DNA from: Pyramidobacter sp. C12-8
GTDB taxonomy: Bacteria; Synergistota; Synergistia; Synergistales; Dethiosulfovibrionaceae
Length of the DNA stretch: 64,000 bases
Assembly (NCBI RefSeq): GCF_002007215.1
Contig: NZ_MUHX01000001.1
Location: 62,001-126,000 of the forward strand
Reading direction: 5' to 3'
Part shown: positions 23,670-59,400 of the stretch, one piece after another
Numbering within the stretch: the stretch's first letter is position 1
Layout of the letters: every line of letters begins with the position of its first letter
The notes under the pieces: model-generated
What the model was told of the DNA's origin: nothing
The model's database searches: none
What the model saw: only the letters and a program-made list of their open reading frames with translations
Made by a program: the position numbers and the translations under genes

Positions 23670-23714
23670 AAAAGCAGTTCGTTTTGCGCGTGGTGCGCAA
23701 AACGAACTGCTTTT
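23670..23714. terminator. strong bidirectional terminator
   Basis: A 20-bp perfect stem (AAAAGCAGTTCGTTTTGCGC with its complement) and a 5-nt loop, with T runs on both strands. It separates the redoxin (plus) from the MarR gene (minus). Confidence 0.9.
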
Positions 23715-29651: not shown

Positions 29652-29667
29652 TGTTCCACGTGGAACA
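29652..29667. promoter_or_regulatory. parS-like ParB binding site
   Basis: TGTTCCACGTGGAACA, a perfect 16-bp palindrome (18 bp with flanking A/T), matches the bacterial chromosomal parS consensus. It lies in the 269-bp gap between the EamA and S9 peptidase genes. A second identical site is at 57861-57876. Confidence 0.8.
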
Positions 29668-57054: not shown

Positions 57055-57807
57055 TTACTTTTTTCCCAGCTTCCACTTCTCGCGCAGGGCGGGGAGGGTG
57101 CCGTCGGCTTCCATGGCGGCGATGGCGCCGTCGAGTTTGTTTTTCAGCGCGGTGTTGCCGAGGTTGACGGCCAGCGCTTTGCCGGCGCCGGTGAGCTGGA
57201 AGGTGTAACCGCGCACGGCCTTGCCTTTGAAGCTGGGCAGTTCGAGGATCTTGTCGGCCACGGGCACGTCCATGAGGGTGAAGTCACTGCGGCCGGTGAC
57301 GATGTCCCACAGGCACTCTTCGATCTTGGCGAAGTTTTTGATCTGGAAGCCGAGTTCGCCCGCCAGCGGCGTGAGGAAAACGTCCTGCGTGGTGCCGACG
57401 GGCACGCAGCCGCGCAGGCCGCGCAGGTCTTCGAGCTTTTTCACGGCGACGTTGGGCGCGGTGACGAAGGAGGCCATGGTGGGCACGTAGGGAGTGGAGA
57501 AGAGCACGCGCTTGGCGCGGATGGGCGTGGCGCTCATGCCGGCGGCGATGACGTCGGCGCGATCGGTGACCAGCGAGGGGATGACCATGTCGTAATGGCC
57601 CGTGTCGAGCCAGACGATCTTTTCGCCGAGACGGCGGCCGATCTCTTCCATCAAATCTTTGTCGAAGCCGTCCAATTCGCCTTTTTCGTTGAGGAACTCG
57701 TAGGGCGGGTAGGTACTGGCGGTGGCCACGCGCAAATCGGCGCGGGCCGCCAGCGGCACGGTTGCAAGCGCCGCAAGCGCGGCGACGGTTTTCCCGAAAA
57801 ATTTCAT
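57055..57807 (-). CDS. amino-acid ABC transporter substrate-binding protein (family 3)
   Basis: 250 residues from ATG 57807, nine bases after AAGGAGG; the ATG two codons earlier is only three bases from the site. Signal peptide 'KFFGKTVAALAALATVPLAARA'. 'LRVATASTYPPYEFLNEKGELDGFDKDLMEEIGRR' is the SBP_bac_3 start and 'LVTDRADVIAAGMSATPIRAKRVLFSTPY' the family signature (type 'GRADxxxxGMxxTxxRxxxxxFSxPY'). It binds an amino acid in the periplasm. No permease or ATPase gene adjoins it, so the rest of the transporter is elsewhere. Confidence 0.9.
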   Translation of the reverse strand: MKFFGKTVAALAALATVPLAARADLRVATASTYPPYEFLNEKGELDGFDKDLMEEIGRRLGEKIVWLDTGHYDMVIPSLVTDRADVIAAGMSATPIRAKRVLFSTPYVPTMASFVTAPNVAVKKLEDLRGLRGCVPVGTTQDVFLTPLAGELGFQIKNFAKIEECLWDIVTGRSDFTLMDVPVADKILELPSFKGKAVRGYTFQLTGAGKALAVNLGNTALKNKLDGAIAAMEADGTLPALREKWKLGKK

Positions 57808-57848
57808 CCTCATTGCCTCCTTGAAAATGACCGGCGTTGACGGCCGCT

Positions 57849-57888
57849 GTGCGATGAAAATGTTCCACGTGGAACATTTTCATCGCAC
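57849..57888. promoter_or_regulatory. parS-like site at the centre of a 40-bp perfect palindrome
   Basis: TGTTCCACGTGGAACA (57861-57876) is identical to the site at 29652. Here it is extended by 12 perfectly paired bases on each side (GTGCGATGAAAA and its complement). It lies 42 bp upstream of the amino-acid-binding protein start, so it could also affect that promoter or form a hairpin in its leader. Confidence 0.8.
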
Positions 57889-57966
57889 GACAGTCGGCGG
57901 CTGGATCCCTTTTTCCGCGCCGCCGGCGCGGAAGCGCTCTTTCACTGCACGCCGTATTATAGAGCA

Positions 57967-58001
57967 AAAAAAATCGCCATGCAATAATAAAATTGCATGG
58001 C
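57967..58001 (-). terminator. terminator of the MocR-type regulator gene
   Basis: GCCATGCAAT and ATTGCATGGC pair perfectly around six bases; on the minus strand GATTTTTTTT follows. Confidence 0.92.
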
Positions 58002-58023
58002 AAACGCTTTTGTTTTTGGACGG

Positions 58024-59400
58024 CTAATCGGCGATCAATTCGGCAAGGACGCGCAGCCCTTTTTCGAGTTGGTCGCGCGGCGGCGTGCAGAAGGCGACGC
58101 GCACGGCGCGGGCGGGCGGCGTTTTGCCGACGGCGAAGCGTTCGGCGGCGGCGACGCGGACGCCCCGTGCCAAAGCGGCCTGCTCGAACTGGACGCTCGC
58201 GAAGCGTCCGGGCAGCGTCAGCCAGCGGAAGATGTCGGCGTCGCCGCCGCGGCATATCGCGTCGGGCAAAATCGCGCGCACGAGACGGCTGCGCTCGCCG
58301 ATGTGCCGCCGGTGCGCGACGATGATACGCTCGAACTGGCCGGAGGCGATGACGCGGGCCGCCAGTTCGGCCATCATCGGCACGACGCCGACGTTGAGGC
58401 TGTACAGCGCGCCGGCGACGGCCTCTTTGCAGGCGTCGGGCACGGCCACGCAGGCGGCGCGCAGCCCCGGAGCGATCACTTTCGACATCGTGGCGATGTA
58501 GAGGCTGCGCTCCGGCACGAAACTCGACACGGAGGGCACGCCGCGCTGCATGAGCTGGTTGGTGCCGTCCTCGATCAGCAGCGCGTCGTGGGCGCGCAAA
58601 ACGGCGGCGATCTCGCGGCGGCGGTCTTCCGGGAGCGTGGCAGTGGTGGGGTTGTGGCAGGCGGAGATCAGGTAGACGCCGTGGATCTTTTCGCTGCGGC
58701 AAAGACGTTCGAGGTCGGCCGGTTCCATGCCCTCATCGCCGCTCCTGACGGGGACGAGTTTGACGCCGAACATGGCGGCGGCCGACTTGACGCCGGGATA
58801 AGTGTGGTCGTCCACGGCGATCTTTTCGCCGCGGCGGAACAGCGAGGCGAAGATGGCCGAGATCGCATTCTGGGCGCCGTTGGCAAACAGGATCTGCTCG
58901 CGGTGCGCCTCATGTCCGCACAGGCGCATGAACGTAACGGCGGCGTCCTTCTGCCACTCGTCCTCGCCCTGGGCGTGGAAGCTGAACAGCGCGGCGGCCT
59001 CGTCGCTGCGGAAGAGTGAGCGGGCCATCTCCAGCAGCGCGGCGTTGGCAGAATCCTCCGGCTGGACGCTGCCCATGTCGATAACGTGCGCTCCTTCGGC
59101 GCGTTCGAGAAACCGTTTGTCGGTGAGCGCGCTGTACGCCACGAACGTGCCGCTGCCGACGGTGGCGGTGAGCAGCCCCTTGAGCTCGCAGAGCTTGAAG
59201 GCTTTGGCCACGGTACTGACGTTGACGTCGAGAAAGTCGGCCAGTTCGCGCTGCGGCGGCAGACGCGTGCCGGGCTTGAGCGCGCCCGACGCGATATCCT
59301 CCTCGAGCGTGCGCGCCAGCGTCAGATAGAGCGCGCGTTCGCTGCGGTCCAGCTTCGGCCGCCAGCTCATCGGATAGTCGTCGAAGGAATTGTAGGGCAT
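58024..59400 (-). CDS. MocR/PdxR-type regulator: GntR DNA-binding domain fused to aminotransferase domain
   Basis: 458 residues from ATG 59400, six bases after GAGGTG. Residues about 15-85 are the GntR winged helix ('LARTLEEDIASGALKPGTRLPPQRELADFLDVNVSTVAKAF'). The rest is a fold-type I aminotransferase domain with 'SACHNPTTATLPEDRRREI', 'IEDGTNQLMQ' and the PLP lysine in 'YIATMSKVIAPGLRAACV'. Such proteins sense PLP or an aminated ligand and control amino-acid or vitamin B6 genes. It may control the adjacent amino-acid-binding protein gene or a divergent target. Confidence 0.92.
   Translation of the reverse strand: MPYNSFDDYPMSWRPKLDRSERALYLTLARTLEEDIASGALKPGTRLPPQRELADFLDVNVSTVAKAFKLCELKGLLTATVGSGTFVAYSALTDKRFLERAEGAHVIDMGSVQPEDSANAALLEMARSLFRSDEAAALFSFHAQGEDEWQKDAAVTFMRLCGHEAHREQILFANGAQNAISAIFASLFRRGEKIAVDDHTYPGVKSAAAMFGVKLVPVRSGDEGMEPADLERLCRSEKIHGVYLISACHNPTTATLPEDRRREIAAVLRAHDALLIEDGTNQLMQRGVPSVSSFVPERSLYIATMSKVIAPGLRAACVAVPDACKEAVAGALYSLNVGVVPMMAELAARVIASGQFERIIVAHRRHIGERSRLVRAILPDAICRGGDADIFRWLTLPGRFASVQFEQAALARGVRVAAAERFAVGKTPPARAVRVAFCTPPRDQLEKGLRVLAELIAD

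Follow-up and report, generated by a model that had tools for sequence, protein, structure and literature searches.

A perfect 40-bp palindrome in Pyramidobacter sp. C12-8 as a probable member of a chromosome-wide array of parS sites

Introduction

Chromosomal ParABS is the system closest to the locus described here, and a review of it asks why the number of parS sites varies and why the sites cluster (PMC7333895). In the experiments cited there and in PMC5815017, extra parS copies are tolerated only around the origin, and ectopic parS is described as harmful outside a permissive zone (PMC5815017, PMC7333895). Noc of Bacillus subtilis has roughly 70 palindromic sites round the chromosome, which avoid the terminus (PMC4331003), and four residue positions separate ParB from Noc according to PMC7383237. 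The ParB of Pseudomonas aeruginosa is described as binding half-parS sequences of 7 bases genome-wide (PMC10419367). Palindromes can also change by template switching, whose signature, as given in PMC8794818, is one flank replaced by the reverse complement of the other.

The window analysed here is a stretch of 64,000 nucleotides (G000:C100:62001-126000) of the draft genome of Pyramidobacter sp. C12-8 (G000; 2,668,344 bases), which contains a parS-like core at the centre of a longer perfect palindrome.

Results

The palindrome and its surroundings

The sequence-only reading, which claimed a 40-bp perfect palindrome around a ParB target in the leader of an amino-acid-binding protein gene, is confirmed on both points: the sequence, GTGCGATGAAAATGTTCCACGTGGAACATTTTCATCGCAC, has arms complementary at 20/20 positions and no loop, and its near edge lies 36 bases upstream of the SBP_bac_3 start codon on the minus strand (Table 1). 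Strong folding is predicted for the hairpin in this presumed leader, so a local effect of the palindrome on the SBP mRNA is possible. A TATAAT-like box on the minus strand at 57956-57961 is conserved in three species as judged by eye, and a promoter scan called no promoter. No U run follows the palindrome, and the terminator scan calls no terminator at its position; the terminator-like hairpin is the one behind the upstream gene. The window holds two exact cores and two 3-mismatch matches, against a mean of 0.54 matches in shuffles, and the second exact core has an arm of 1 bp only. A further perfect inverted repeat at 23670-23714, with 20-bp arms, a 5-base loop and A/T ends, is probably a bidirectional terminator.

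Table 1. Features of the window and related loci in other genomes; numbers are window positions and L numbers are loci.
Feature	Position or loci	Strand	Basis or remark
Perfect 40-bp palindrome, parS core with 12-bp arms	57849..57888	.	Arm complementarity; comparison with G003 and G001
parS core TGTTCCACGTGGAACA, one of 55 exact genomic copies	57861..57876	.	Consensus match
Second exact parS core, without long arms	29652..29667	.	Orthologous sites in G001 and G003
SBP_bac_3 gene (extracellular solute-binding protein family 3), downstream of the palindrome	57055..57813	-	
GntR-type regulator fused to class I/II aminotransferase, upstream gene	58024..59397	-	
Intrinsic-terminator-like hairpin 3' of the upstream gene, apart from the palindrome	57974..58003	-	Kept in G001 and G003
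TGTTTCCCGGGAAACA in relatives	L051, L054, L057, L059, L060; ParB loci L133-L136		
Near-parS sites	G002, e.g. L110-L121, L221-L234; G004, L122-L126		

Copy number in the genome and in the phylum

The parS consensus, TGTTYCACGTGRAACA, has 55 exact matches in the 2.67-Mb genome, all of the form TGTTCCACGTGGAACA, and 77 matches within two mismatches, while its reversed control has 0 exact matches and 1 within two mismatches. A chance repeat is ruled out by 55 copies against none in the control and about 0.001 expected. The search for all parS sites and the comparison of their flanks, which the sequence-only reading had proposed, recovered a large family of exact copies, but long arms at only 5/55 of them.

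Exact copies number 54 in each of the two sister species (G001 and G003), and G138, a second genome of the same species, has 57; G002 and G004, the other genus members, whose fragmented assemblies are both 82-83% complete, have 0 and 2 consensus matches. Of the 185 genomes in the phylum, the 179 outside the genus hold 0-3 copies each, which among the places listed are mostly TGTTTCACGTGAAACA. The 16-mer is multiplied in this genus to more than 50 identical copies, against 0-3 in the relatives searched. No report of such a parS array was found in the parts of the open-licence literature consulted.

For the comparisons below, the sites retrieved were 55/55 in G000, 50/53 exact TGTTCC-type sites in G001 and 53/54 consensus matches in G003, and those of G138 were taken by position only.

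Conservation within the genus

An orthologous exact site exists for 38/55 sites in G001, 38/55 in G003 and 31/55 in both, under loose orthology criteria that leave a few assignments (identity 65-85%) doubtful, and the DNA is about 92% identical. In an ungapped comparison, the flanks vary at roughly 9-28% of positions over the 16 nt next to the core. Because only exact sites were retrieved, these figures describe positional conservation and not the rate of core loss.

This conservation of position between species bears on the reading of the site as a small element, mobile or repetitive, that spread by insertion, a reading that is hardly probable at all. Five sites that abut a similar bidirectional terminator and two sites of L042 that share flanks would fit it, but the flanks overall share nothing beyond 1-2 bases and no common ends are seen. 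The candidate was rejected since no sequence is shared beyond the core, except in the L042 pair and for a terminator that adjoins several sites. The five terminators, at L024, L025, L026, L029 and L048 of G000, carry GGAAGCCGATGA or a variant directly against parS; a search of the window for the terminator sequence found beside several sites gave 8 matches against 4.2 expected, so that it is not clearly repeated there. The L042 sites, at 2001 and 4051 in G000, stand 2 kb apart and share about 30 left-flank bases as well as the first part of the right flank, suggesting a local duplication.

G002 has 83 near-sites within two mismatches (control 4), none of them perfect, and G004 has 32 (control 2), of which the two consensus matches are not perfect palindromes either. 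Among the 47 G002 near-sites that were examined in context, on 26 stretches and out of the 83 genome-wide, 43 lie outside called genes. Several G002 near-sites, among them two that precede parA by about 770 and 830 bases, stand at places where the G000 clade has a site, so dispersal is probably older than the sampled members of the genus, with the strict, perfect form of the site probably confined to one clade. Since near-sites are many and no perfect palindrome is seen in either genome, not even ahead of parA in G002, G002 and G004 may read the site differently, which counts against the array reading; the ParB of G004 has Ala at the normally conserved Ser172.

The parS core and its ParB

Two exact copies of the 16-mer, 117 bases apart, stand just upstream of rsmG-parA-parB, the place expected for parS, where rsmG is our reading of the frame and parA and parB are supported by profile matches. 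The genome has a single ParB_N gene. Because of these two copies and this one gene, the dispersed 16-mer is well supported as the organism's own parS, in agreement with the first reading of the core.

The encoded protein is 319 residues long and carries ParB_N and HTH_ParB domains. PDB chains of Spo0J, ParB and Noc align with it, and the offset of residue numbering was inferred from this alignment. The four residues that tell ParB from Noc read R-K-S-G here, with the ParB-type R173 and G201 retained; positions 179 and 184 are variable among ParBs. Its GERRxR motif reads GERRFH: the third Arg is His in 5/5 genus members, while 17 relatives have 14 Arg, 2 Gln and 1 Lys. Lys stands at position 204 in the 4/4 genus members that reach it and Arg in 17/17 relatives, and the N terminus of the genus proteins is extended, basic and rich in Ala and Lys, all three comparisons being made by eye. 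By these comparisons the ParB of the genus is altered in its CTP motif and in one DNA contact, changes that are suggestive. The R82A variant of Spo0J, at the same motif position, is described as spreading with diminished activity (PMC4331003). It may be speculated that a ParB that slides less needs, or tolerates, more loading sites.

Genus members have one ParB-type gene, while two are found in 13/21 other genomes, whose second copies carry the Noc-type residues Q173, K179 and R201 and fall below the NCBIfam cut-off for Noc. One ParB-type gene was also found in G006, G020 and G021, in which parS is not expanded.

As a separate observation, TGTTTCCCGGGAAACA, which has a Noc-like centre and parS-like ends, occurs near a parA-parB-type ParB in G005:C3, G007:C2, G009:C1 and G010:C7, and the ParBs of these four genomes read R-K-K-R at the four specificity positions. 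Sites and proteins together possibly represent a natural intermediate between ParB and Noc specificity.

Placement along the chromosome

By our own codon-usage gene calls, 50/55 sites are intergenic, against 86% coding in 464 kb sampled (p = 2e-37). Neighbours were called on both sides of 48 sites, which divide into 21 convergent, 21 co-directional and 6 divergent settings; the convergent share compares with 13% expected from the convergent share of intergenic bases (p = 1e-7). G001 and G003 have the same placement pattern.

With 55 copies here and few in relatives, either ParB works all over the chromosome or the site gained a second use. One form of second use is that the dispersed copies serve another protein, for example a transcription factor with parS as its operator, at which ParB binding would be incidental. 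The intergenic position of the sites, some of them upstream of genes as in the window, is what such an operator would show, but the excess between convergent genes and the mere six sites between divergent ones do not suit it. The dispersed copies are moreover identical to those upstream of parA, so ParB would bind them anyway, and this explanation is improbable.

The main contig of G138 (2,777,081 bases) allows distances from dnaA to be taken. The gene lies at 172 kb, and a pair of sites with the same 117-base spacing lies at 160 kb, about 12 kb away. The 57 sites are spread unevenly with respect to their distance from dnaA (KS p = 3e-5): density reaches 60 per Mb within 100 kb, and 23 sites fall within 300 kb and 40 within 600 kb, so that 34/57 lie more than 300 kb away, 17 more than 600 kb and 3 beyond 1 Mb. 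The largest site-free gap is 390 kb (p = 0.012), in a genome whose terminus position is uncertain; a dif-like pattern gave one match with 3 mismatches, at G138:1,135,328, which is not relied on. On C1 of G001 the base skew switches sign somewhere between the 185-205 kb and the 245-265 kb samples, and C1 carries no sites other than those at 357 and 362 kb, which leaves a long site-free stretch around the switch. Clustering near the origin, which is a usual trait of parS and does not define the sequence, was not found as such: the sites are densest there yet dispersed.

This layout recalls nucleoid occlusion, in which the ParB of the genus would act like Bacillus Noc and couple division to segregation. 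The number and spread of the sites are similar, they are sparse far from dnaA and lacking around the G001 skew switch, and the single ParB-type gene of the genus, where relatives often have a second copy with Noc-type residues, together with the changed motif, Lys204 and N-terminal extension of its product, would accord with a protein that took over such a role. Against this, the target is parS and not NBS, since the centre is CACGTG at all 55 sites and that of NBS is CCCGGG; the extension itself reads as basic and Ala/Lys-rich; three relatives with one ParB-type gene show no expansion; the second copies score below the Noc cut-off; and there are the few sites near the antipode. We regard a Noc-like function as unlikely.

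Extent and origin of the arms

Arms of at least 9 bp are found at 5/55 sites (9, 9, 12, 14 and 16 bp) and have no common sequence, while pairing of flanks across sites yields arms of this length in 0.03% of 5,940 pairs. Between species, 24 position pairs have changed on both sides and yet stayed paired, against a mean of 5.9 and a maximum of 15 in 500 trials in which right flanks were shuffled among sites; this test was ungapped and used site pairs with at least 86% identity over at least 1200 aligned bases (G000-G001, 31/38; G000-G003, 34/38; G001-G003, 32/39). The arm at L004 measures 16 bp in G000 against 27 bp in G001, and the changes are symmetric.

The 12-bp arms of the window site are identical in G003 (L215), while the G001 ortholog (L086) keeps the core with an arm of 2 bp. 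Lack of arm conservation in relatives, which together with equal ParB binding had been named as grounds for giving up a role for the arms, is seen in one sister species and not in the other. In G001 the right flank is nearly the same, and the left diverges along some 17 bases and does not complement it, so one flank was replaced as a block. The proposal that the arms are a functional device is left unsupported by their rarity, their lack of shared sequence and the 2-bp ortholog; they are real but secondary, and presumably no part of the recognition signal.

That the sites are RNA hairpins, namely terminators, 3' stabilisers or leader structures in which the match to parS is secondary, is highly improbable. 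The strong hairpin predicted in the SBP leader and the symmetric arm changes would be expected of such hairpins, as would the terminator-like elements, which lie within 100 nt of 28/55 sites and include T runs starting 14-16 nt ahead of the core at L009, L010, L020, L021 and L041; one near-site of G004 even forms the tip of a terminator-like stem (L124). The window palindrome, however, has no U run and is not called by the scan, arms are missing at most sites, and a 16-base identity from loop to stem at 55/55 sites exceeds what a hairpin needs. At the imperfect sites of G002 (the same 47 near-sites), the sense strand has 14 G-U against 22 A-C pairs and thus no preference for G-U, and long arms are found at sites between convergent, co-directional and divergent genes alike. 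A family of terminators or mRNA hairpins was accordingly rejected on gene contexts and wobble counts, and the mRNA-structure role suggested by the sequence-only reading finds no evidence for the family. Two Rfam matches, far below gathering scores, were taken as chance.

Since both the flank-replacement signature and symmetric changes are seen, template switching is taken as the most likely cause, and the arms would have arisen by homogenisation of inverted repeats. Symmetric changes could also reflect selection on a stem, against which the wobble count and the mixed contexts speak, although such selection may act at single sites.

Discussion

The palindrome probably belongs to an array of about 55 parS sites that extends over the chromosome, and the arms would be by-products of template switching. 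The copy number of the sites, their conserved positions, their placement, the gradient from the origin and the symmetric arm changes are direct observations, while ParB binding at the dispersed copies, template switching as the source of the arms and the function of the array are inferences. The copies stay between genes, many of them where convergent genes end; they are densest near dnaA and become sparse far off. Identical 16-bp targets are indistinguishable to ParB, so the single ParB should nucleate at every copy, and its binding at the dispersed copies is predicted from this identity. Nucleation at parS would then load ParB along the greater part of the chromosome, at the highest density close to the origin, and the array would hold ParB, possibly with SMC or division regulators, across the same span and not only at the origin. 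A perfect 16-bp inverted repeat would in turn nucleate fold-back template switching, which would occasionally copy one flank to the other and so produce a longer palindrome.

Extra parS outside the permissive zone is reported to be harmful, which tells against the array reading, and this lineage must differ in some way. A tentative idea, to which we give a limited chance, is that the modified ParB, with GERRxH, Lys204 and the basic N-terminal extension, is a chromosome-wide organiser that acts at quiet gene ends through more than 50 conserved parS sites and perhaps replaces the Noc-like paralogues of relatives, so that the centromere would be spread and not a point.

With about 55 perfect sites, many of them at the same places in several species, the lineage is a natural exception to parS clustering. 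The array makes the question of clustering directly testable and could show how ParB changes its role, and the arms form a natural series in which palindromes grow around a single short motif.

Among known systems, chromosomal ParABS is the closest. The two have in common the 16-bp consensus, a single ParB carrying ParB_N and HTH_ParB domains, and copies near dnaA ahead of rsmG-parA-parB; the difference is that about 55 dispersed sites are found here, while the highest examples given in PMC7333895 have 20-23 origin-proximal ones. Noc/NBS of B. subtilis, as described in PMC4331003, has in common tens of palindromic sites for a ParB-family protein that are spread chromosome-wide and sparse away from the origin, but here the sequence is that of parS, ParB-type R173 and G201 are present and parA is adjacent. 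Half-parS binding in P. aeruginosa likewise takes ParB beyond the origin region, as is predicted here, where the sites are complete and perfect. Quasipalindrome correction, in the account of PMC8794818, also makes one flank the reverse complement of the other and changes several bases symmetrically, whereas in this lineage the same presumed mechanism would have been nucleated repeatedly by one protein-binding palindrome.
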